Below, in pieces: positions 27,522 to 37,931 of a stretch of 37,931 bases of DNA (the stretch's first letter is position 1; each line of letters opens with the position of its first letter). The stretch covers positions 1 to 37,931 of the forward strand of contig JAHBUH010000032.1 in assembly GCA_019638185.1 (NCBI GenBank), in the 5' to 3' direction. The notes beneath the pieces were generated by a model that worked only from the letters and a program-made list of their open reading frames with translations, was not told the origin of the DNA and ran no database searches. The position numbers and the translations under genes are program-made. This DNA comes from Leadbetterella sp. (GTDB taxonomy: Bacteria > Bacteroidota > Bacteroidia > Cytophagales > Spirosomataceae).

Positions 27522-27686
27522 CAACGGCACCCGAAAATTTTAAAATTTATTTATAATTAATCCAGATTTTAATTTTAGTATATTGGCGTAGTATAACGAG
27601 GTATAACAAAATAAAAAGTAGGTTTAAGGTGATTTTTTAAGAATTTATAGAATTAATAATTTTTTACAAAAAAAGATTAGATAAAA

Positions 27687-27696
27687 GCAAAATTAC
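27687..27696 (-). other. Candidate integration core site (GTANNTTTGC match)
   Basis: GTAATTTTGC on the minus strand matches the GTANNTTTGC core used by CTnDOT-family recombinases, about 230 bp upstream of an integrase of that type. A 10-bp degenerate match in AT-rich DNA can occur by chance. Confidence 0.35.
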
Positions 27697-27929
27697 GCAA
27701 AACGGTTAGAACCGTTGCTATACAATGCTTTATAAAATAGTAGTCCAAGTTCAGAAGTCGGTGTCCGATAGGTTTTGGGCTTAAAATGACAAGGTTAGGT
27801 TACTAAATCGTTACTGATTGACTTCGGCAACAACATAGTTTAACTGATTATATTTCAGTCTTTTGCACCCTTTTCTACATTGCCTTGTAACTCGATGTAA
27901 TTTAATTTTAAACGTTAAACATTTGAGTT

Positions 27930-29255
27930 ATGGAGCAAGCAAAAAAATCCACGTTCAAGCTGCTTTTCTACCTGAAAAAGAACGAACTGAAAAAGAACGG
28001 TAATGCGCCAATTATGGCACGTATTACCATTGACGGAGTACCTAAAACTTTCGGAACAAAGTCAGAAATCAACCCCAATATTTGGGATTTGAAATTTGGA
28101 AGAGTTGAGGGTAAGAGTGCCCAGGCATTGAGCATTAATAAAAAACTGGATAACATACGGGGACGTATCGACAAGATTTACGAAGATATGCTGAAGCACG
28201 AGGGCTTTGCTACTTCACAGAAAGTAAAGCTATCCTTTTTAGGCGTTGGCGTAATGGAGGATGCTGTATTAAAAGTATTCAGGGAACAAAACAAAGAATT
28301 TCAGAAAATGGTCGCTAAGGGAAAACGCTCCCAAAGCACTTATAGTAAGTACAACACGGTTTACAACCACCTTAGTGAGTTTATAAGGGAGCGTTACCAT
28401 AGGGATGATATGGCTTTCAGGGAACTTACTTCCGATTTTATCCGAGAGTTTGATTTCTTCCTCCGCATTGATAAGGAATGCACCCATAATACGGTTTGGG
28501 TTTATACAATGCCAGTTATTGCTTTGGCTGAACTGGCTATCAAAAAGGGGCTGATACGTGATAACCCGTTTGAGGATTACGAAATCAGTATGGAGGAAAC
28601 CGACAGGAGCTATCTTTTAAAAGAAGATGTAGAAACCTTATTACTTTTAAAGCCTTCAAAGTCCAGGTATGAACTTGTAAAAGAACTCTTTATTTTCAGT
28701 TGTTTTACTGGGCTTTCTTATGTTGATATTAAGAAACTGAAATGGAGCAATATTCAATCGTTCTTTGACGGACACCAGTGGATAATCAGCAGGAGGAAGA
28801 AATCAGATGTTTCTTCCAACGTCCGTCTTTTGGAAATCCCTAAACGCATTATTGAGAAATATAGAGGCGTTACGAAAAATGATTTTGTATTTCCAATGCC
28901 GTCCAATGCGACCTGTAATACGCATATCAGTAAACTTGTAAAGGAGGCAGGCATTGTTACAGAACAAAAAGTTACATTCCACACCGCCCGTCATACATTT
29001 GCTACAATGTTCTTGACCGAGGGCGTACCACTTGAAAGCCTTAGCAAAATGATGGGTCATAAGAATATTTCCACCACGCAGATTTATGCTAAAATCACAA
29101 GCCAAAAAATCAGTAAGGATATGGATTTGGTTTCGCCTAAGTTTAAGGCTATGGAAGATGCGTTTCTTATCCAAATGGAAAGTGAAGAGATAGAATTGCT
29201 GAATGAATATGCAAACACAGATGAAATCTACAATACCGAAGAAGTGTTGGTTTAA
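27930..29255 (+). CDS. Tyrosine recombinase/integrase of the CTnDOT type
   Basis: This 441-residue site-specific recombinase should catalyse integration and excision of the element. It has an arm-binding N-terminal domain (about 8-95), a SAM-like core-binding domain (about 110-215) and a catalytic domain (about 230-400). Catalytic residues visible are Lys291, His351 and Arg354 in HTARHTF, His377 in MMGHKN and nucleophile Tyr386 in TTQIYAKI. The position of the first conserved Arg is Ser263 in CFTGLSYVDIKKL, as known for IntDOT. The ATG at 27930 gives a full arm-binding domain. It points into the element and ends at a clear terminator. Confidence 0.94.
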   Translation: MEQAKKSTFKLLFYLKKNELKKNGNAPIMARITIDGVPKTFGTKSEINPNIWDLKFGRVEGKSAQALSINKKLDNIRGRIDKIYEDMLKHEGFATSQKVKLSFLGVGVMEDAVLKVFREQNKEFQKMVAKGKRSQSTYSKYNTVYNHLSEFIRERYHRDDMAFRELTSDFIREFDFFLRIDKECTHNTVWVYTMPVIALAELAIKKGLIRDNPFEDYEISMEETDRSYLLKEDVETLLLLKPSKSRYELVKELFIFSCFTGLSYVDIKKLKWSNIQSFFDGHQWIISRRKKSDVSSNVRLLEIPKRIIEKYRGVTKNDFVFPMPSNATCNTHISKLVKEAGIVTEQKVTFHTARHTFATMFLTEGVPLESLSKMMGHKNISTTQIYAKITSQKISKDMDLVSPKFKAMEDAFLIQMESEEIELLNEYANTDEIYNTEEVLV

Positions 29256-29284
29256 AACTTAGTCTATTCCTTATTTTCATATTG

Positions 29285-29313
29285 AAGCAGAACTTAACGG
29301 TTCTGCTTTTTTT
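29285..29313 (+). terminator. Intrinsic terminator after the integrase gene
   Basis: AAGCAGAAC (29285-29293) and GTTCTGCTT (29300-29308) form a perfect 9-bp stem with a 6-nt loop, ending in seven Ts. It lies 29 bp after the integrase stop. Confidence 0.9.
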
Positions 29314-29691
29314 ATGCCCCTACTTTTCATTACTCCAATCTCTGTTACAGGCTATCAAAGCCTGCCATTAATGCCATAAAAGTTTAAAAGAATTAAGAAA
29401 AGATATTTCCACAATCAACCGGTAAAAAGGCAGCCAAAGTACGGCGGTCACCCCACGCACAATCCCAGCCAAAAGACTACGGCATAAACGGTTTCCTCCC
29501 TAAAGGTACCCTCCAATTATTCCGTTTCCTTTTGGCTTTTCCTCTTGACCGCCTTGATAGTCTGCTTTCTTTTTTCCGGTTTTTCTTTTGGAAAAAATTA
29601 TGCGAAGCGAAGCGGAGCAGACCACAACGGGAGGCGGGAAACGAGAAAAGCGAACGTAACAAAATGTAAAACTTTTAAAACAGGAACGATT
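29314..29691. other. Intergenic region upstream of ssb with a long nested hairpin
   Basis: No convincing gene is present here. The frame upstream of the ssb ATG is open to 29545 but lacks any SSB-like sequence. The main feature is the three-tier inverted repeat at 29443-29553. A purine-rich stretch GCGAAGCGAAGCGGAGC lies just after it (29602-29618). The region probably holds the ssb promoter, but I could not place its boxes. Confidence 0.5.
29443..29553. repeat. Nested inverted repeat (111 bp) with three collinear stems
   Basis: Three arms pair in order: GGCGGTCA (29443-29450) with TGACCGCC (29546-29553), AGCCAAAAG (29467-29475) with CTTTTGGCT (29529-29537), and AAACGG (29486-29491) with CCGTTT (29522-29527). 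All three are perfect and concentric. This could be an RNA leader, a single-strand initiation site or part of a transfer origin. No nick-site motif was recognised. Confidence 0.6.
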
Positions 29692-30084
29692 ATGAACATC
29701 ATCGGAAGACTGACAAGAGATGCGGAAGTACGCACAACGTCACAGGACAAACAAGTAGTAAACTTTTCAGTAGCTACCAACGAAAGCTACAAGAACAAAC
29801 AGGGCGAACGCATTGAGCAGACAACCTATTTCGACTGTGCCTATTGGCTATCTGCAAAGGTAGCATCACTACTGACTAAAGGCACTTTGGTAGAACTCAC
29901 AGGCAGGGTAAGCACAAGAGCGTGGACAGGCAAAGACGGAGAGCCGAAAGCAGGTTTGAATTTCCACACCTCAAACATCAAGTTTCACGGAGGTATCAAA
30001 AGAACCGAAACCGTACAGCCTACTGCACAATCTGAAAGCAACGGATTTACAGCACAGGGAACAGAGGACGACCTCCCATTTTAA
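29692..30084 (+). CDS. ssb: Single-stranded DNA-binding protein of the mobile element
   Basis: This 130-residue OB-fold protein protects single-stranded DNA, probably during transfer or replication of the element. MNIIGRLTRDAEVR starts the fold, followed by YFDCAYWLSAKVASLLTKGTLVELTGRVSTRAW. The acidic C-terminal tip EDDLPF is the usual protein-interaction tail. The ATG at 29692 is preferred over upstream in-frame starts because it gives the normal SSB N-terminus. It leads the plus-strand gene run that includes DUF932 and the PRTRC genes. Confidence 0.95.
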   Translation: MNIIGRLTRDAEVRTTSQDKQVVNFSVATNESYKNKQGERIEQTTYFDCAYWLSAKVASLLTKGTLVELTGRVSTRAWTGKDGEPKAGLNFHTSNIKFHGGIKRTETVQPTAQSESNGFTAQGTEDDLPF

Positions 30085-30127
30085 TCAAGAACATTCAATC
30101 ATTTTTTAACATCAAAATTTTATCAAA

Positions 30128-31201
30128 ATGGCACATAATATCAATTTCAACGAGCAAACAGGAAAGCACAGTTTTTTTTCAGTACAGCAAAAAGCGTGGC
30201 ACGGTTTAGGGCAAATCGTGGAGCAATACCCAACGAGTGAGGAAGCTATCCGACACGCAGGGTTAGATTACGAAGTCGTAAAATCCCCACTGTTTACCAA
30301 AGGTTCGGGTATCATCGAAACCGCACAGGGTATTGAGATAGGCAGTAGCGAATTGGAAGTACCCAACTATTTCGCCAACATACGCACCGACAATAACGCA
30401 GTTTTGGGAGTAGTCGGTAAAGATTACCACATAGTACAAAACAAAGAAGCCTTTAATTTTTTTGATGCTATTGTAGGCGGTGGTGAGGGTATTCTCTATG
30501 AAACCGCAGGAGCATTGGGCAACGGAGAACGCATTTTTATCACAGCGAAACTGCCCGACTATATCCGTGTAGGCAATGGCGATGATGTTACGGAAAAGTA
30601 CATTTTCCTAACCACTTCGCACGATGGTAGCGGGAGTATTACCGCAGCGTTTACACCTATCCGTATCGTTTGCCAAAACACCTTAAACGCTTCACTACGC
30701 AATATGACCAATGTAGTCCGTATCAAACATACTTCGGGAGCAAAACAGCGTATTGAGAACGCTCACAAGATTATGGGACTTGCCAACACGTTGAGCAACC
30801 AGTTAGAGAACATTTTCAACAATTGGACAAAGGTAAAAGTATCAGACCGAGAAGTAAGAAAGCTAATCCAATTGGCACTTTGCCCGAACAAGGAAACTTT
30901 AGATCTAATCAACAAAGGTGCGGAAGATGAAATTTCAACCGTATTCAAAAACGTGGTTGATAATGCTTTTACCTATGCGATGATAAGCGACACACAGCAA
31001 ATGGACACCACCAAAGGGACTTTGTTCGGGGCATACAATGCGGTTACAGGCTACTATCAGAACGTAAGAAATTACAAAGATGACGAAGCCAAGTTGCAGA
31101 GCATTGTATTGGGTGGAACGGCTCAACAGAAAACGCAGAAAGCATTTGAATTGTGTACCGCCTTTGCTTTGGATGGTGCGGAAATCCTAAACCTTAATTA
31201 G
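30128..31201 (+). CDS. DUF932 phage/plasmid-like protein
   Basis: This 357-residue protein belongs to the DUF932 family (phage/plasmid-like TIGR03299), found on plasmids, phages and integrative elements. Recognisable parts are the N-terminal FFSVQQKAWHGLGQIVEQYPT, the central GVVGKDYHIVQNKEAFNFFDAIVG, and ITAAFTPIRIVCQNTLNASLRN followed by KIMGLANTLSNQLENIF. No biochemical function is established. It is 43 bp after ssb, and a hairpin follows its stop. Confidence 0.9.
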   Translation: MAHNINFNEQTGKHSFFSVQQKAWHGLGQIVEQYPTSEEAIRHAGLDYEVVKSPLFTKGSGIIETAQGIEIGSSELEVPNYFANIRTDNNAVLGVVGKDYHIVQNKEAFNFFDAIVGGGEGILYETAGALGNGERIFITAKLPDYIRVGNGDDVTEKYIFLTTSHDGSGSITAAFTPIRIVCQNTLNASLRNMTNVVRIKHTSGAKQRIENAHKIMGLANTLSNQLENIFNNWTKVKVSDREVRKLIQLALCPNKETLDLINKGAEDEISTVFKNVVDNAFTYAMISDTQQMDTTKGTLFGAYNAVTGYYQNVRNYKDDEAKLQSIVLGGTAQQKTQKAFELCTAFALDGAEILNLN

Positions 31202-31209
31202 ATAACAAC

Positions 31210-31237
31210 AGGCTACCACCTTAATCGGCGGTAGCCT
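31210..31237. promoter_or_regulatory. Stable hairpin after the DUF932 gene
   Basis: AGGCTACC (31210-31217) and GGTAGCCT (31230-31237) pair perfectly. After one mismatch two more GC pairs form, with a TTAATC loop. No T-run follows, so it is more likely an RNA-stability or processing element than a terminator. The 8-mer GGTAGCCT recurs in another hairpin near 37815. Confidence 0.6.
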
Positions 31238-31253
31238 ACTATAAACAATAGTT

Positions 31254-31637
31254 ATGACAATAGAAATATATGAAGCAACGCTGAAGCACGACACAGGTAC
31301 AACAATGCTCAGAGTAATATCACTAAGCGGTAAACAGGGAGCGATACAGCAAATCACAACCGCAGAGGGTTGTCCCGAATGTGCCATTGTGAATATAGTA
31401 GAAATTTTTAACGATACAAGACAGCAGGATATGAAAGCAAAAACCATAGAGGAAGCAAAAGAATTGGCTAAAGGCAAGAGCCTTGAAAAGAAGCACAAGG
31501 ACGAAACAGTACATATTATCTACTGCAATCGTACAGAGTATTTCTACATAGACACGAACGGTTTAATACGCCTTTGGGAGCAATCATTCGGCTACTATGT
31601 GAATGGCGTTTATACGGCTGAAAAATCACATTCATAA
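31254..31637 (+). CDS. Small protein of unknown function in the element
   Basis: I do not recognise this 127-residue protein. It has no signal peptide or membrane segment. The N-terminus looks like a beta-rich domain (IEIYEATLKHDTGTTMLRVISL). A pair of cysteines is spaced by two residues in EGCPECAIVNI. A charged helix (about 62-85) and a final aromatic segment (TEYFYIDTNGLIRLWEQSFGYYVNGVY) follow. It starts 52 bp after DUF932 in the same direction and is collinear with the genes downstream. Confidence 0.75.
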   Translation: MTIEIYEATLKHDTGTTMLRVISLSGKQGAIQQITTAEGCPECAIVNIVEIFNDTRQQDMKAKTIEEAKELAKGKSLEKKHKDETVHIIYCNRTEYFYIDTNGLIRLWEQSFGYYVNGVYTAEKSHS

Positions 31638-31656
31638 CCTTAAACAATAAACGATT

Positions 31657-32172
31657 ATGGCTAATTGGTGCAGTAATACGGTTGTTTTCGAGGGAGAACC
31701 CGAAGCAATCGAACAGATACAACAGCTATTCAAATCAATGGCTGAAAAGGAACAGACAGAAGAATGCGGACAGTTACCCGAATTTGTTTCGGAGCATAAC
31801 GGTGGTTATTTCTTTGAAATCTATCAAAACGATGATGTTACAGGCGTATTCCAATATGAAACAAAATGGTCGCCCAATATTGTAGAAGTACAAAAGATAG
31901 CAGAACACTATAACGTGAACTTCACACAGGACTATCTGGAATTGGGTAACTGTGTATGTGGCAGGGCAACATTTGCTGACGAGCTACTCACAGATGTTTT
32001 TTTGGAGTACGAAGATTTTGAACAGTTCGAGTTTGACGAAGAAACTGACACCTACCATTTTGAGGGCGAAGAGTACGACAGCGAGTACGAAATTTTAGAA
32101 ACCTTATTGGAACGTAAAATCGAAAATCAATTTACCAACACTAACATTCAGAACGATGAAATTATCAGATAA
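31657..32172 (+). CDS. Api92-like (DUF1281-type) protein
   Basis: This 171-residue protein starts MANWCSNTVVFEG, the characteristic opening of Api92/DUF1281-like ferredoxin-fold proteins seen in phages and mobile elements. It continues with FFEIYQNDDVTGVFQYETKWSPN and a YELGNCVCGR-like segment. The C-terminal third is strongly acidic (VFLEYEDFEQFEFDEETDTYHFEGEEYDSEYE), which suggests a protein or DNA-mimic type interaction surface. No function is known. Its last 17 bases overlap the next gene. Confidence 0.75.
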   Translation: MANWCSNTVVFEGEPEAIEQIQQLFKSMAEKEQTEECGQLPEFVSEHNGGYFFEIYQNDDVTGVFQYETKWSPNIVEVQKIAEHYNVNFTQDYLELGNCVCGRATFADELLTDVFLEYEDFEQFEFDEETDTYHFEGEEYDSEYEILETLLERKIENQFTNTNIQNDEIIR

Positions 32173-32599
32173 ACCAACAGCGTACGTACTGCTCAAAGCA
32201 GGAACCAACAGCGAATGGGACAATTGCAATTTTGCCATTATCCACATTACCGAAGATTGGAAAAAAGAACAGCAAAAACGGCTTGAAATGGTTAGGCCGT
32301 TTGCAGAAGATTACTTCTTACAATCACTGAACTATTACGATACGGCAGTAGATTTTTATACGGCTGACGAGGACGACAACCCCGATTTATACAAATGGCT
32401 TGAAAGTAAGCCTATGGCATACGTGGATATTGACAAAGAAGAACTCCAAACATTATCCGTACCCGAAAATCGCTTGGACTGTTACAGGCTTGTACTATAT
32501 AAGACAGGCACAGCAATGTATAAAGCCTACGGAAAGCACACGAGCGAAGAATTTTGGACAGAGGAATTTCCATTAATCCCATTAATTCAAACATTATGA
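32156..32599 (+). CDS. Small acidic protein of unknown function
   Basis: I do not recognise this 147-residue protein. It has no signal peptide. The N-terminal half contains a regular strand-helix pattern (AYVLLKAG, NFAIIHITEDWKKEQQKRLEMV), and the middle is acidic (YTADEDDNPDLYKWLE). It overlaps the preceding gene by 17 bp, and its TGA overlaps the ATG of the next gene (ATGA at 32596-32599), so translation of all three is probably coupled. Confidence 0.75.
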   Translation: MKLSDKPTAYVLLKAGTNSEWDNCNFAIIHITEDWKKEQQKRLEMVRPFAEDYFLQSLNYYDTAVDFYTADEDDNPDLYKWLESKPMAYVDIDKEELQTLSVPENRLDCYRLVLYKTGTAMYKAYGKHTSEEFWTEEFPLIPLIQTL

Positions 32600-32934
32600 C
32601 ACGTTCAAATCTCCATATCAAATTGAGCAATGGCAAATCCATTATATGCGTTGCCGATAGCAGTTCCGCACCCGAACAGGGCTACATCGTAGAGCATCTG
32701 TTATTGCCACTTCTTTCGCTTGACGACATCGAAAAGGAAATGTATTTACTATCAGAGCATTGCACGATGGATGAAAGACGGATAAATGCAGACTACCGCT
32801 ACACCATTGACCTAACTACAAAAGAAGTAAAGTTTTTCGAGGAGCATTATAGCTATTCAAAAGACAATTTCAGAAAGGGAAAGGATATAACGGAGCGATA
32901 TAACGAGTATGTAAAAACAATTATCAACAATTAA
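32596..32934 (+). CDS. Small protein of unknown function preceding PRTRC E
   Basis: I do not recognise this 112-residue protein. The frame is open further upstream, but the ATG at 32596 sits in an ATGA overlap with the preceding stop and is preferred. It begins with a short beta segment (LHIKLSNGKSIICVADSS), and ends in a helical, basic part (NFRKGKDITERYNEYVKTI). It lies 12 bp before the PRTRC E gene, so it may belong to the same functional unit. Confidence 0.7.
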   Translation: MTRSNLHIKLSNGKSIICVADSSSAPEQGYIVEHLLLPLLSLDDIEKEMYLLSEHCTMDERRINADYRYTIDLTTKEVKFFEEHYSYSKDNFRKGKDITERYNEYVKTIINN

Positions 32935-32946
32935 AATTTCAGAACG

Positions 32947-33558
32947 ATGAACGCAAATTTTTTCAATCAGATACAAGCTTTGGACTTTACAGGAGTATTG
33001 CAACTCAACATTTCCAAAGGAGCAGAAAGCAACCTTATTGTATCGGTACTGCTCCAAAACGAACAATGCAGAGATAGTGCCAAAAACCTCATTCCCCCAT
33101 TGACGTTTAACGCCACACCACAGGAATTTGACGAGGGATTTTTTGAGCAGATAAAAGCACCTGTTAAAACCGTTTCAGGCGTAATGGTGGATATGGAAAA
33201 ATTCCTAAAACAAATGGACGAAGTCAAAAAGCAATCGGCAATGGAGAAAGAAAAGACCGAGAAAGCCAAAAAGGAAAAAGAAGCCAAAGACAAGAAGTTT
33301 AAAGACGGAATGGCAAAGGCTGACGAATTGGAGAAAGAGGGCAAACACCGTGAAGCGTGGATGAAAGTACCCGACATCACCGAGTTTCCCGAAAAAGCGG
33401 ACGAGATACGCAAACGCAAAACGGAATTATCAAACAAGTTCGCCACACCGAGCCTTTTCGGAGCAATGGAAGAAGCAACACCCGAACCGCCAAAAGCGGA
33501 AGAAGTTACAGCCGATTATCCCATAGATGAAACGGACGAAGAAGAAAACGAGTATTAA
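32947..33558 (+). CDS. PRTRC system protein E
   Basis: This 203-residue protein matches the PRTRC E family by its opening MNANFFNQIQALDFTGVLQLNI and its place directly before PRTRC C. An N-terminal globular part (about 1-70) is followed by a highly charged Lys/Glu coiled coil (about 85-130) and an acidic tail (DETDEEENEY). Its biochemical role is unknown. In this family the coiled coil suggests a scaffold or adaptor, which is inference. It is 18 bp upstream of PRTRC C. Confidence 0.85.
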   Translation: MNANFFNQIQALDFTGVLQLNISKGAESNLIVSVLLQNEQCRDSAKNLIPPLTFNATPQEFDEGFFEQIKAPVKTVSGVMVDMEKFLKQMDEVKKQSAMEKEKTEKAKKEKEAKDKKFKDGMAKADELEKEGKHREAWMKVPDITEFPEKADEIRKRKTELSNKFATPSLFGAMEEATPEPPKAEEVTADYPIDETDEEENEY

Positions 33559-33576
33559 CCATTAAATACAGGCATT

Positions 33577-33795
33577 ATGTTATTAGCAACGCAATTGGAA
33601 CGAGTGTTTATACTCAAAGACAAAGGACAGGATATCAGACTGACCGACCCCGAACCACGTTGGAGCGTGGAAGCCGTAATGAATTTTTATGCCAATATGT
33701 ACCCCATTCTGACCACTGCAAAAGCATCTGCACCACAGATAAAGGATGATGCAGTAGAGTACAGATTTGAGAGCGTAATGGGAACGAAAGGTTAA
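33577..33795 (+). CDS. PRTRC system protein C (prokaryotic ubiquitin-like)
   Basis: This 72-residue protein belongs to the PRTRC C/Prok_Ub family, predicted to have a ubiquitin-like beta-grasp fold. It carries a beta-hairpin start (ATQLERVFILKDKGQDIRLTDPEP), a central helix (SVEAVMNFYANMYPIL) and late strands (ASAPQIKDDAVEYRFESVMG). The protein ends in Gly (MGTKG), the residue needed for adenylation and conjugation in ubiquitin-like proteins. It lies between PRTRC E and the F-position gene. The fold and Gly fit a modifier, but conjugation has not been shown for this family. Confidence 0.9.
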   Translation: MLLATQLERVFILKDKGQDIRLTDPEPRWSVEAVMNFYANMYPILTTAKASAPQIKDDAVEYRFESVMGTKG

Positions 33796-33812
33796 ACCAA
33801 ATAATTAAAGCG

Positions 33813-34967
33813 ATGAACTATGCACAAACATATCCTATCGGGAACTATCACAATACCCGAACAGCAACGGCAACGACAATTGCACCGCCAGTTAAACGAG
33901 TTCGCCAATTGGATGCAAAAGCCAAAGGACGCAAACGAAGTACGGAAAGACAAACGCAAATCAGTACCAACAGCGATGTTGCCAATGGTTTTTTAAAATG
34001 TTCGTTTCTGCCTAAACTAAAAGAAACGAAAACCGTACAGGCTTGCAGGAAATCGGACAAAACGGAAAGGGATTTTTTTCAGTCCCTTTCTAAATTGGCA
34101 GAACATTACAATATTGAACCTGCACAGACCAAACAATTTGCCTATCCCTACAATATGGCATTGGCGATGACTGATGTAGAGGAAAAGTTAAAGAGCAAGG
34201 TTTTGGATTGGGAAGAAATCCGTTTGGTACAGGACAGTAAGAAAACCTATTTCGTAATTGAAGAACGCTACAATACAGGAGCAACACTTTTTTACATTCC
34301 TGTTTCGCCATTGTACCGCCTTTTGCACGATAAAAAGCGAAAAGCCAACGCACACCTATTATTGTCCGTGTGTGCTTATCTGTACCATATAGCCGACATT
34401 CCGTATTACAGGCAGGAAGCAAGCTATCTCTATTGGATGTACGAAATGATGAACGATTGGGTTGAACAGGACGATTATACGGAAGAAACCGAAGTTTATT
34501 TATCAGAAATCAAACAAGCCGAATTTATAGGCGACTTTATTGAGCAACGGATTTACAACCGTATCAATCTGACCGTATTTGAACAACGTATTGAAAAGTT
34601 CAAAGTAAGAAACGATTTTGACAGCGAATGTTTAGCGGTAGCAAAAGAAGCCTTTGCACTATATCATACCTATCCGAATGAAAATGTATTCCGCAATGCC
34701 AAACCCAATGGAGAAGCATCTGAAGAAGATATGGACAACATTATCGGAATGGAAAAATACATTTCATTTTACGCAGACCACAAAGGTTGGCTTAATGAAA
34801 CCTTGATAGAATCTGTAAACACCGATATACAGGAATACGGACAAATGGAAGAACCTATTATACTGAAACAGTTTGACGGCAGGGATATAACCGCCAACAA
34901 TCTTTGTTTTGAAAACAGGTTATTTCAATTATTACACAGCCTAAGCGATATTTTACATCAATGTTAA
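33813..34967 (+). CDS. Protein between PRTRC C and B (F-position, unrecognised family)
   Basis: This 384-residue protein occupies the place between PRTRC C and B where some clusters carry protein F, but I cannot confirm that family from sequence. The first 60 residues are basic and low complexity (TRTATATTIAPPVKRVRQLDAKAKGRKRSTERQ), possibly nucleic-acid binding. The rest is mostly helical with many aromatics (HLLLSVCAYLYHIADIPYYRQEASYLYWMYEMM). It has no signal or membrane helix. Spacing is 17 bp after C and 10 bp before B, consistent with one operon. Confidence 0.7.
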   Translation: MNYAQTYPIGNYHNTRTATATTIAPPVKRVRQLDAKAKGRKRSTERQTQISTNSDVANGFLKCSFLPKLKETKTVQACRKSDKTERDFFQSLSKLAEHYNIEPAQTKQFAYPYNMALAMTDVEEKLKSKVLDWEEIRLVQDSKKTYFVIEERYNTGATLFYIPVSPLYRLLHDKKRKANAHLLLSVCAYLYHIADIPYYRQEASYLYWMYEMMNDWVEQDDYTEETEVYLSEIKQAEFIGDFIEQRIYNRINLTVFEQRIEKFKVRNDFDSECLAVAKEAFALYHTYPNENVFRNAKPNGEASEEDMDNIIGMEKYISFYADHKGWLNETLIESVNTDIQEYGQMEEPIILKQFDGRDITANNLCFENRLFQLLHSLSDILHQC

Positions 34968-34977
34968 ATGCAAGAAT

Positions 34978-35703
34978 ATGGAAACGATAAACGATATAAC
35001 ACAGGACTTTGGCACATTATACCACCCCAAATCGGCTTTGGTATTCTACGAAACCAAAGGACAGACAACCGATGTGTATGTAGAGCATTTTGATATGGAT
35101 AAAAACGGAAACCCCATCAATGCCCACCCTTTGACCATAAAGGAAGCAAACGTATTGGCAAAGGCACTCCACACCGAAAAGGACAAAGACAAAGCCTTTT
35201 TAAAACCAAGCGGAATTTTGCCGACAAACATTTTGCATCTTAATCCGAGTGCGGAAAAAGGTACGGTAATCTGGTACACCAAAGCACAGCAAAGGCAGTT
35301 GTTTTTTGTGGACGGTCTGAAAATTTCCAACGGTAAAGCCTATGTACCGTCAATGCTTTGGAAAGCAAGTAAAAACAGTCTTACCGTATATGCTCTTTTA
35401 AGTGACCGAAGACCAACCGATAAGACCAAACTGCATTATGCTCCGTTTTTCAATATCTATGAAGACGGTAAAGTTTGTATGGGAACGGTAAGCATAGATA
35501 TAAAGAAATCCGCATCAGTAGAAGAATTTATACAGGCTTGGGAACACTATTTTTTCAATTCCTATTTCAGCCATTTGTTGGGCAAACACAATCCCATAAA
35601 AGGCGATTGCGTACAAGTATGGAAAGACCTTGTAAATACAGATAAAACCTTTCCAAAAGAAGTATTAAAACCGTATAACAAAACCCTTAAAAATCTATTG
35701 TGA
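34978..35703 (+). CDS. PRTRC system protein B (E2-like)
   Basis: This 241-residue protein belongs to PRTRC B, classed with prokaryotic E2-like (Prok-E2_D) proteins. The best evidence in the sequence is APFFNIYEDGKVCMGTV, which mirrors the E2 active-site pattern HPN...G.(V/I)C(L/M); the putative catalytic cysteine is Cys167. An alpha/beta N-terminal part (about 15-100) precedes it and a helix-rich C-terminus follows. If the analogy holds, Cys167 would accept the ubiquitin-like protein from the ThiF partner. Its TGA stop overlaps the ThiF ATG (TGATG), so the two are translationally coupled. Confidence 0.88.
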   Translation: METINDITQDFGTLYHPKSALVFYETKGQTTDVYVEHFDMDKNGNPINAHPLTIKEANVLAKALHTEKDKDKAFLKPSGILPTNILHLNPSAEKGTVIWYTKAQQRQLFFVDGLKISNGKAYVPSMLWKASKNSLTVYALLSDRRPTDKTKLHYAPFFNIYEDGKVCMGTVSIDIKKSASVEEFIQAWEHYFFNSYFSHLLGKHNPIKGDCVQVWKDLVNTDKTFPKEVLKPYNKTLKNLL

Positions 35704-36512
35704 TGGAAACAGTAAAAACAGCCGTTCATTTTACGGACAATTATTTGATAAGTCCGACAAACCCGATTGAAGTTAATTTGATTGGTGCAGGTGGTACAGG
35801 CTCAAAGGTGCTGACTGCTTTAATGGAAATGAGCCACAGTCTAACAGAATTGGGACACGCAGGATTGCAGGTGCGTTTGTGGGATGATGATATTATTACG
35901 GAAGCCAATTTGGGCAGACAGCGATTTGCACCGAGTGAAACAGGATTGTACAAATCGGTAGCACTTATAAACCGTGTCAATCGGTTTATGGGAACAAATT
36001 GGAAAGCAGAAACTCAAAAGTTTGAACGCAATGCGTTGGGCGGATTGCCTGAAAATGCAAAGTCAACGATTTATATTTCTTGTGTGGATAATGTAAAGAC
36101 AAGGTTTGATATTGCAGAAATGCTCAAAACAATGAGTAAACAACGCAGAGCCAACCGTGATGAACCCAAATATTGGTTGGATTTTGGGAACAGCCAACAT
36201 ACAGGGCAAGTGATACTATCTACCATCGGAAGTATCAAACAACCCGACTCTGAAAAGTATGAAGCGGTGGCAAGCCTGCCAATGGTTACGGATGAATTTG
36301 GCGAACTGCTGAAACAGTCCGAACAAACAGACGATACGCCAAGTTGTAGTTTGGCAGAAGCATTGGAAAAGCAGGATTTATATATCAATGCTACATTGGC
36401 TCAAATAGGGTGTTCGCTGTTGTGGAATATGTTCCGCTACGGAATGACTGAAAACAGGGGATTTTTTCTTAATCTGAAAAATTTCCACACCCAACCCCTA
36501 AAAGTTGCCTGA
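35703..36512 (+). CDS. PRTRC system ThiF-family protein (E1-like)
   Basis: This 269-residue protein has the ThiF/MoeB/E1 adenylation fold. NLIGAGGTGSKVL (25-37) is the nucleotide-binding loop, DDDIITEANLGRQRF (61-75) supplies the acidic metal site and arginines, and SCVDNVKTRFDI (126-137) is the second acidic strand. Cysteines at 127 and 215 (DTPSCSLAEA) are present; Cys215 lies in the crossover-loop region where E1 proteins place their catalytic Cys. The expected reaction is adenylation of PRTRC C. A GTG three bases earlier is an alternative start, but the ATG in the TGATG overlap is preferred. Confidence 0.9.
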   Translation: METVKTAVHFTDNYLISPTNPIEVNLIGAGGTGSKVLTALMEMSHSLTELGHAGLQVRLWDDDIITEANLGRQRFAPSETGLYKSVALINRVNRFMGTNWKAETQKFERNALGGLPENAKSTIYISCVDNVKTRFDIAEMLKTMSKQRRANRDEPKYWLDFGNSQHTGQVILSTIGSIKQPDSEKYEAVASLPMVTDEFGELLKQSEQTDDTPSCSLAEALEKQDLYINATLAQIGCSLLWNMFRYGMTENRGFFLNLKNFHTQPLKVA

Positions 36513-36529
36513 CCCCAAAAGGTCGGGCG

Positions 36530-36572
36530 GCGAAAAGACGCATCCTTCCGTTGGTCGGAACCGCCTTTTCGC
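36530..36572 (+). terminator. Compound hairpin after the ThiF gene
   Basis: GCGAAAAG (36530-36537) pairs with CTTTTCGC (36565-36572), enclosing a second stem TTCCG/CGGAA (36546-36550 with 36556-36560). It lies 18 bp past the ThiF stop. There is no long T-run after it, so termination is likely but not certain. Confidence 0.5.
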
Positions 36573-36581
36573 ATTTAAAAA

Positions 36582-36890
36582 GGTGCAACCACTTTGTCAA
36601 AATGCACCTCTACACAATTCCCTCTCTCTACATTTTACCAAACAGGTTGCGACATTATTCTCGTGGGATATTCTTTATCCCTTTCGTTGTTTTTGGTAAT
36701 GACTTCTTTTCTTTTCACACAGCGACCAAAGAAAAGAAGCAAAAGAACGTCGCTTATTAAAACATATATTTTCCACTATTATCATTAAATCGGTGCAACA
36801 CCGTTGCCAAAACGTACCGCTACATACACCCCTCTTAACCTACATTTACATCAAAACAGATTGCGAGATATTGCGACAAATTGCCTGGGG
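36582..36890. repeat. Pair of diverged ~95-bp direct repeats, 210-bp period
   Basis: The copies begin GGTGCAAC at 36582 and 36792. They share GGTGCAAC, then TTG-CAAAA, ACC-CTACA, a C/T-rich tract, TACATTT, AAACAG-TTGCGA and AT-rich ends, with scattered differences. The copies point the same way and lie between ThiF and the response regulator. They could be origin iterons, recombinase or partition sites, or structured RNA genes. Confidence 0.6.
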
Positions 36891-37090
36891 TTTCATTATC
36901 CCATTTTTGTATTTGGAATATTTTTAATTTTAGTTTTAACCAATAGTAGACAATTGAAAACAGTATTTTAAAACTCCAAGAAATACTAAAGCGGCCCTAC
37001 AAAAACTGGCAGAGTGCGATGATACTTTTGCCGGAAGTGATAATTGGAGGTCAGCCTTATTCATTGAGAAAAAACCACCTTTAAATAAAA

Positions 37091-37528
37091 CTAATTTTTG
37101 TAATAGTCCTGCGCAATTTCGGCAACACCTGCACTAAAGTATTGCCCACCGTTATAGATAACTTCAACTGCCTTTTTTAATTCGTCAGGGTCGGCTCCTT
37201 TAAGAACGTAGCCGATAGCACCGCATTCGAGCATTTTAATTACGTCCTTTTTATCATCATTGACACTGAATGCCAGTATCTTTAATTGAGGGTATATTTC
37301 CAGTAACCTTTTTGTGGTTTCAAAACCATTCATAACAGGCATACTCACATCAACGATACAAAGGTCAGGAATATACTTAAAAAGAGCGATTTTGTCGATT
37401 GCAGACTTACCGTTTTCAGCTTCAAATAACACTTCAAAACCGTAGCCTCTCAGGAACTCACAAATGCCTTTTCTTAGCAGGTCGTGGTCATCTATAAATG
37501 CTACCTTAATTGTTGGTTCTATATTCAT
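37091..37528 (-). CDS. Receiver-only response regulator
   Basis: This 145-residue protein has a complete receiver domain: acidic pair Asp13/Asp14, phospho-acceptor Asp60 in CIVDVSMPVMNGFE, Ser88 and Lys110 in YVLKGADPDEL. The sequence is closest to NarL/LuxR-type receivers, but it stops after SAGVAEIAQDYYKN with no DNA-binding domain. The DNA after the stop shows no HTH in another frame. It may be a phosphate sink, a partner-binding switch or a remnant. Its ATG overlaps the stop of the upstream gene (ATGA), so the two are cotranslated. No histidine kinase is visible in the window. Confidence 0.88.
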   Translation of the reverse strand: MNIEPTIKVAFIDDHDLLRKGICEFLRGYGFEVLFEAENGKSAIDKIALFKYIPDLCIVDVSMPVMNGFETTKRLLEIYPQLKILAFSVNDDKKDVIKMLECGAIGYVLKGADPDELKKAVEVIYNGGQYFSAGVAEIAQDYYKN

Positions 37529-37791
37529 CTTCTTCTTTTAAATAGTTTAAAAAATCCGGGTTTAGATAAGTTAGCCTCTTTATACGGAGAATATAAGCCG
37601 TCGTTAACGGCAATATCCCTGATATTGAAACGGCAAAGCCATTCTTTAAAGTGTGCTATTTTGTTAGGTTTAAAACGTACAATTTCCCCATTCTTGAGAG
37701 ATATAATAAAAACGTCTATGCAGAGAGAGAAAGCTGATAATTGCGATGCAGGCTGGTCAAAATCGGGGTAAAAATTGTCTTTGCTGTCCAT
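37525..37791 (-). CDS. Small unknown protein coupled to the response regulator
   Basis: I do not recognise this 88-residue protein. A start at 37791 (MDSKDNFYPDF) is preferred over longer in-frame starts that read through a hairpin. It contains a strand segment (CIDVFIISLKNGEIVRFKP), a helix (NKIAHFKEWLCRF) and a basic C-terminus (KLFKRRR). No signal peptide is seen. The ATGA overlap with the receiver gene suggests a shared function. Confidence 0.65.
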   Translation of the reverse strand: MDSKDNFYPDFDQPASQLSAFSLCIDVFIISLKNGEIVRFKPNKIAHFKEWLCRFNIRDIAVNDGLYSPYKEANLSKPGFFKLFKRRR

Positions 37792-37814
37792 AATCTTAAT
37801 GTTTAAGGTTGTGG

Positions 37815-37843
37815 TAGCCTGCGCAAAAAAAGAGCGTAGGCTA
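37815..37843. promoter_or_regulatory. Hairpin upstream of the small gene at 37525-37791
   Basis: TAGCCTGCGC (37815-37824) and GCGTAGGCTA (37834-37843) form a 10-bp stem with one wobble around an A-rich loop. On the minus strand it lies 24 bp before the start codon, where it may act in a 5' leader. Confidence 0.5.
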
Positions 37844-37885
37844 ACTACACTTACCGCACATTGAGGCACTGGTATGCCCGACAAC

Positions 37886-37931
37886 GAATAAGTGAGCGCC
37901 CACGCCTTTTGACGTGAGCGTTCTTACTTAT
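37886..37931. repeat. Imperfect inverted repeat at the window edge
   Basis: ATAAGTGAGCGCCCACG faces CGTGAGCGTTCTTACTTAT with a short loop and a few mismatches. It may be a terminator of a gene beyond the edge or part of a larger structure cut by the window. Confidence 0.4.

Follow-up and report, generated by a model that had tools for sequence, protein, structure and literature searches.

A mobile PRTRC cassette without a JAB gene in Bacteroidota, and its possible role as a ubiquitin-like conjugation system

The PRTRC cassette of Leadbetterella sp.

The DNA discussed here, which we call the window, is a stretch of 37,931 nt from Leadbetterella sp. (assembly GCA_019638185.1, contig JAHBUH010000032.1), and is the entire contig C26 of a 4.22-Mb assembly of 39 contigs. 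Within a foreign element it carries a PRTRC cassette of five open reading frames (ORFs) at 32947-36512, all on the + strand, in the order E, C, a gene for a protein of 384 residues, B and ThiF. Successive genes are separated by 18, 17 and 10 nt, except that B and ThiF overlap, the stop codon of B and the ATG of ThiF (35703) sharing 1 nt.

PRTRC E (203 residues, 32947..33558) matches PF19556 (1.8e-72) and TIGR03741. PRTRC C, the ubiquitin-like candidate modifier (72 residues, 33577..33795), matches PF14454 Prok_Ub (7.1e-27) and TIGR03738 (3.2e-15) and ends in ..MGTKG followed directly by the stop (Gly72 codon 33790-33792, stop 33793-33795). The 384-residue protein (33813..34967) is mostly helical and has no Pfam or NCBIfam match above cut-off. 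PRTRC B (34978..35703) is E2-like, with matches to PF14460 Prok-E2_D (2.3e-37) and TIGR03737 (4.6e-40), and has Asn159 (codon 35452-35454), Cys167 in a GKVCMG context (codon 35476-35478) and His199 further on. PRTRC ThiF (35700..36512) is E1-like (TIGR03736, 2.5e-74) and includes the loop GAGGTGS; the ATG at 35703 is a likelier start than the GTG at 35700, and its Cys is residue 215 counted from the ATG and 216 from the GTG (codon 36345-36347). The matches of E, C, B and ThiF to their NCBIfam PRTRC families are all above the curated cut-offs. The five proteins have no matches in PHROGs, and sequence searches with B, C and the 384-residue protein gave no convincing relative of solved structure.

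This operon had been described earlier in a reading made from the sequence alone (the sequence-only reading), and its coordinates, tight spacing, Gly end, Cys167, Cys215 and GAGGTGS loop are all confirmed. The co-occurrence of genes for ubiquitin-like, E1-like and E2-like proteins is a feature of operon type 6d of Iyer et al (2006), and is found here.

Absence of JAB gene A and of ParB

On the Cupriavidus plasmid pMOL28 the order is ParB-E-C-F-B-A-ThiF, A being the gene for a JAB peptidase, and where A is present it is positioned between B and ThiF in 44/44 cases. With regard to the window contig, the sequence-only reading was correct in seeing neither JAB nor ParB, as profile searches of the contig also find none. 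Its suggestion that they be sought elsewhere had a mixed outcome. The genome as a whole, window contig included, has no match to Prok-JAB (PF14464) or to PRTRC_A (TIGR03735), the scan with the latter having had no control match in this genome, although the same model scores 1.9e-72 on pMOL28. There is a single copy of RadC, on contig C1, and there are two matches to ParB_N, on contigs C3 and C1, and none on the window contig.

For comparison we used 256 ThiF loci from genomes, plasmids and IMG/VR contigs, searched with purpose-built hidden Markov models (HMMs), which gave 197 distinct loci when identical ThiF ends were merged. They include 80 Bacteroidota loci, the best 80 of 495 confirmed in a ThiF scan of genomes, with flanks of more than 5 kb upstream of ThiF in 72/80 and downstream in 74/80. 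Among these best 80, B and ThiF are present in all, C in 77 and E in 76, and neither A nor PRTRC ParB was found in any within the available flanks. PRTRC_A was also found in none of 395 sampled Bacteroidota genomes, 15 of which, including that of the window, have C. By these counts the JAB-less form appears general across the Bacteroidota loci examined. The sequence-only reading had thought of a minimal version, which agrees with the lack of JAB and ParB throughout, but it is the general Bacteroidota form and not peculiar to this element. Cassettes without A are also found beyond Bacteroidota, in annotated plasmids of Pelobacter (a stretch that stops at ThiF), Pseudomonas, Thiodictyon and Alteromonas, with no A beside B or ThiF.

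We call a cassette A-negative if there is no A match within 6 kb of ThiF on the same strand, some contigs giving shorter flanks. The spacing or order of B and ThiF is unusual in 12 of 152 A-negative cassettes; in nine of these the ORFs between B and ThiF were inspected by eye and none is JAB-like. A loose JAMM pattern run over the A-negative loci gave what seem to be chance matches, together with RadC in two IMG/VR contigs.

The absence of A from the cassette leads to one alternative, in which conjugation is the same but C is taken off again by a JAB-type enzyme whose gene lies elsewhere (RadC, for example), making the mark reversible. RadC is present on contig C1, and RadC-like ORFs with HNHPSG, each a possible stand-in JAB, lie near the cassette in the two IMG/VR contigs (L182/L247 and L180/L285, each fetched twice); an enzyme could also lie in that part of the element which is outside the assembly. 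In contrast Prok-JAB is absent from this genome and from four other carrier genomes, and in the 256 loci, comprising flanks and not whole genomes, HNHPSG is confined to those two contigs and a 49-residue ORF of L057. We consider this alternative unlikely.

The C terminus of PRTRC C

If the JAB protein trims C, then residues beyond the conserved Gly are expected only alongside JAB. The idea arose from four loci (the window and L032-L034) and could be put to the distinct loci, 187/197 of which have C, the other 10 being outside the count; the window is absent from the list and the near-identical L035 is included. A tail of at least three residues beyond the Gly is present in 31/43 A-positive and 0/144 A-negative cassettes, two A-negative C proteins ending in Ala being counted as tail-free. 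The split is seen for plasmids alone (8/12 and 0/11), for IMG/VR alone (23/31 and 0/68), without the 80 Bacteroidota loci (31/43 and 0/79) and without L032-L034 (30/42 and 0/142); Fisher values for it ignore ancestry. The 131 distinct A-negative C proteins comprise 129 that end in Gly and two in Ala, with no tails, and C ends in ..GTKG in all 77 of the 80 Bacteroidota loci in which it was found.

Because tails occur solely in A-positive cassettes, the C of JAB-less cassettes is, to judge from these termini, encoded ready-made. The sequence-only reading had proposed that this modifier needs no processing, and that proposal withstood a count that could have gone against it.

With regard to ancestry, a ThiF tree was built with 121 rows, taken from the 244 loci that have both C and B, and it requires at least 7 changes of A and 6 of the tail. 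When the tail was simulated as independent of A, only 3 of 4006 comparable runs (about 7e-4) had no A-negative tail, using one quick tree and one rate model. We note also that in IMG/VR contigs L139-L161 C has 48-100 extra residues, and that many of these tails share a conserved last 25 or so residues and differ before it.

PRTRC B and its resemblance to E2 enzymes

In the comparison of B proteins, which includes the window and in which contigs present more than once are counted separately, Cys167 is present in 222/222, Asn159 in 221/222 and His199 in 214/222. Asn159 is eight residues before Cys167, which matches the classical E2 spacing. When a profile of 64 B proteins is aligned with four E2 sequences, Cys167 coincides with the E2 Cys and Asn159 with the Asn of HPN (P 3.3e-4, and 0.42 for a reversed control). 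The four E2s share the pattern N-x4-G-x-[IV]-C-[LM]; in the Bacteroidota loci 80 of 2285 ORFs have it, every one of them a B, but among the 64 diverse B proteins only 27 do. In Pfam all 64 match well to Prok-E2_D alone.

In the model of B (predicted local distance difference test score (pLDDT) 89.2, predicted template modelling score 0.71), a body rich in strands is followed by Asn159, Cys167 and, 14 residues past the Cys, the start of a helix, an order that fits the order of elements in E2 enzymes. An E2 fold for B is likely, although Foldseek found no PDB match for the model (see below).

ThiF and the question of sulfur transfer

In the case of ThiF, the loop glycines, Asp62, Asn70, Arg73, Lys85, Asp130 and Arg135 are present in 197/197 distinct sequences, Gln74 and Cys216 (GTG numbering) in 196/197 and Asp64 in 193/197. 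By sequence, the window ThiF thus has the ATP-site residues of an E1-like adenylation enzyme (Gly loop, Asn, Arg, Asp and Lys). With the GTKG ends of C and the figures for B, the three residues whose variability the sequence-only reading would have taken as telling against it, the terminal Gly, Cys167 and Cys215, are conserved. Two Cap2 entries (3.2e-6) of the cyclic-oligonucleotide-based antiphage signalling system (CBASS) are the sole solved structures related to ThiF at E <= 1e-5.

ThiF has a further match, at 1e-7 and below the cut-off, to the ThiS-adenylyltransferase ThiF model. This raises the possibility that C is a sulfur carrier, with ThiF making a C thiocarboxylate as for ThiS and B being a binding partner and not an E2. 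The terminal Gly is compatible with either chemistry, and genes of the phosphoadenosine phosphosulfate reductase family are near the cassette on plasmids of Aromatoleum and Pseudomonas paraeruginosa (L122, L128). However the B Cys is invariant, with an E2-like Asn at -8, the window ThiF has no CxxC pair, and on two Bacteroidota plasmids the neighbours of the cassette include none named as a sulfur or cofactor gene. We think it quite improbable that C is a sulfur carrier.

There are also loci with more than one E1-like gene. A Tunicatimonas plasmid (L033, 15059-16121) has a second one beside a DUF6527 gene, about 7 kb from the PRTRC cassette, and a Deinococcus proteolyticus plasmid (L124) has two PRTRC ThiF genes annotated close together.

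The F-slot protein and selection on the cassette

The 384-residue protein, which the sequence-only reading had left as a protein of unknown kind, does lack a family match, but it occupies the PRTRC F slot, as its gene has the same position as F in the pMOL28 order. Among ORFs in the slot between C and B in 240 loci, 149 join the family of the window protein by iterated HMM search and the other 91 do not. Homology to PRTRC F itself was looked for: small profiles gave nothing and larger ones a weak C-terminal match, that to the main proteobacterial F group being over 75 columns with a probability of 34%. The model is mostly helical (pLDDT 83, the first 56 or so residues being of low confidence); it has no match in the PDB at E <= 0.001 and one match elsewhere, to a protein of an uncultured phage (E 9e-8). 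Its position and make-up agree with the protein that Iyer et al called “largely alpha-helical”, although this is not proof.

Against six loci, and by a simple counting method, the ratio of nonsynonymous to synonymous substitution in C is 0-0.03. The other four genes have higher values: ThiF 0.06-0.11, B 0.10-0.14, E 0.09-0.19 and the F-slot gene 0.07-0.27. These sequence comparisons indicate that all five genes are kept by selection and that C is the most constrained, as is expected of a modifier that has to fit several partners.

The mobile element and its neighbouring genes

The left end of the element is placed approximately at 27649..27669, where similarity to several independent Bacteroidota loci begins, and the foreign stretch extends from about 27.66 kb to the end of the contig, with a drop in GC content from 0.514 to 0.401. 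From the left end come, all on the + strand, an ORF that we take to be integrase-like (27930..29255), SSB (29692..30084; PF00436, 3.5e-20), a DUF932 protein (30128..31201; PF06067, 2.5e-68), small genes, and then the cassette. In the 65 Bacteroidota loci of at least 17 kb, SSB and DUF932 are each present in 63 and relatives of the integrase-like gene in 33.

Epilithonimonas caeni DSM 17710 (L035, 1958-15482) matches the window at 99.96% over 27657-36737 and at 100% over 36735-37931. Its element has about 3.25 kb extra after window position 36735, with ORFs that we take to be for a SulP-type transporter and an IS110-type transposase, and ORFs downstream are presumably conjugation genes. The 1950 bases beside the E. 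caeni insertion have a GC content of 0.341, as against 0.514 for the host part of the window, and given this difference beside near-identical elements we infer a recent transfer between hosts that are not closely related. A TraG-type gene on contig C34 was considered as belonging to the rest of the element, but the first 20 kb of C34 has no blastn match to L035 or the window, and the gene seems to be part of another element. Contig C34 (L290, L291) has a separate conjugation-type set, in which the TraG-type match is in two pieces, one with an internal TGA.

The setting suggests a further alternative, that the cassette encodes a plasmid or integrative and conjugative element (ICE) maintenance complex, in which the E1-like and E2-like proteins merely bind, for partition or DNA protection. 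Outside the 80 Bacteroidota loci, and among cassettes for which 6 kb upstream was available, PRTRC ParB precedes 18/37 A-positive and 4/66 A-negative ones; DnaN, primase or helicase genes are near the cassette on some plasmids, and one paper counts PRTRC as a partition system (PMC7466150). Against this, the catalytic residues of ThiF and B are almost fully conserved and the 80 Bacteroidota loci have no ParB, and we see such a complex as very improbable.

Relation to known systems

Iyer et al (2006; PMC1779556) reported operons of this type, with a JAB peptidase, and put forward the conjugation idea, with the terminal Gly, the Cys and the downstream His. The ubiquitin-like, E1-like and E2-like families named in the sequence-only reading are upheld, but its conjugation idea is not new. 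According to the same authors a JAB gene is always immediately adjacent when the E1-like protein has no JAB fused to it, and they have B. thetaiotaomicron in row 6d; the JAB-less loci described here depart from the adjacency statement. With operon type 6d as on pMOL28, the Leadbetterella cassette shares a ubiquitin-like C with a conserved Gly, an E1-like protein, an E2-like B with Cys and a His further on, a mostly helical protein at the F position, and carriage on mobile DNA. It differs in that no A and no ParB were found, C has no tail and the sequence of the F-slot protein is not clearly alike.

Type II CBASS has in Cap2 the nearest solved E1 and conjugates through a C-terminal Gly or Ala, Ala supporting conjugation less well (PMC10097602), and Cap3 removes conjugates from targets (PMC10097602; PMC10449767). 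In contrast the cassette has separate E1 and E2 proteins, its own ubiquitin-like modifier and no Cap3, and a PADLOC scan of 10 proteins (the operon and its upstream side) found no CD-NTase or effector and only weak E1-E2 matches to ThiF. The BIL system (BilABCD) also has ubiquitin-like, E2 and E1 genes in a single operon, and its JAB protein BilC trims BilA to expose its Gly (PMC11354881, a review), but BilA has two ubiquitin-like domains whereas C is a single domain of 72 residues with no JAB. BT2645-BT2649 of Bacteroides thetaiotaomicron, known from rows of an iron-response table (PMC10434189), lies in a region that also has conjugative-transposon and integrase genes; its members include PRTRC E, a hypothetical gene, E2 family D and ThiF.

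In the parts of the open-licence literature consulted, with subscription papers mostly outside the search, we found no experiment on PRTRC conjugation and no mention of a JAB-less class or of a tail rule; PMC5868059 was set aside as it concerns a promoter with a similar name. What is new here is the JAB-less Bacteroidota form, the placement of the F-slot protein, the breadth of conservation at the candidate active sites, and the rule linking tail and JAB, which makes the role of JAB testable.

Proposed function

We favour the view that this is a mobile ubiquitin-like conjugation cassette that does without JAB, and put the probability at roughly 0.6. ThiF would use ATP to adenylate Gly72 of C and receive C on Cys215 as a thioester, and C would then pass to Cys167 of B, with Asn159 and His199 assisting catalysis. 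B, perhaps aided by E or the F-slot protein, would join C to a lysine of the target, E being a possible adaptor or itself a substrate. In relatives with A, C often carries a tail of 5-100 residues, which A would trim, and A may also detach C from targets. Here C would be made mature, trimming would not be needed, and the cassette would have no eraser of its own, so that the mark would be lasting or be removed by an enzyme encoded elsewhere. Proteins of the element that handle DNA would be likely targets, as SSB and DUF932 are such steady neighbours. The data show the genes and their order, the conserved residues, purifying selection, mobility and the link of tail and JAB, whereas all the chemistry, what E and the F-slot protein do, and the target are inferred.

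Several points weigh against the cassette being such a system. The C terminus is a single Gly and not GG, and Ala replaces it in two JAB-less cassettes (L116, L206). Allowing for ancestry weakens the link of tail and JAB: in an independent-pairs test the 3 supported pairs went in the expected direction or showed no difference, which is not significant. Furthermore 12/43 A-positive C proteins have no tail of at least three residues, three of the 12 having a single Arg, so A cannot serve for trimming alone; removal of C from targets is most likely its further role. The profile match of B to E2 is weak (probability 38%). The sequence-only reading had placed C, B and ThiF with relatives of ubiquitin, E2 and E1 and proposed structure prediction as a check; the family matches uphold the placement, but Foldseek with the model of B found no PDB match at E <= 0.001, E2s included. 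Lastly, most of the element lies outside the assembly, and a 4-kb stretch further along the E. caeni element was not found in the Leadbetterella assembly, in a search with no positive control, so the absence of JAB and ParB holds for the assembled part of the element.

The conjugation reading can be taken further, to a one-way system in Bacteroidota, with a ready-made modifier as constrained in sequence as ubiquitin, an E1 and E2 of its own and no eraser, which would permanently mark DNA-handling proteins of the element or of the new host after transfer. JAB-bearing relatives would then make a masked precursor, whose tail, rapidly changing and as long as 100 residues in phage-like contigs, is cut by JAB. 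This extension is speculative and we hold it as rather doubtful.

PRTRC cassettes are found on plasmids, ICEs and phage-like contigs across several phyla, and the link of tail and JAB provides a sharp test of whether JAB serves to trim, to erase or both. For reconstitution in the test tube, C, ThiF and B of the Bacteroidota form make a small set that needs no trimming step. A ubiquitin-like system that is passed between bacteria would illustrate the way such modules enter new lineages.

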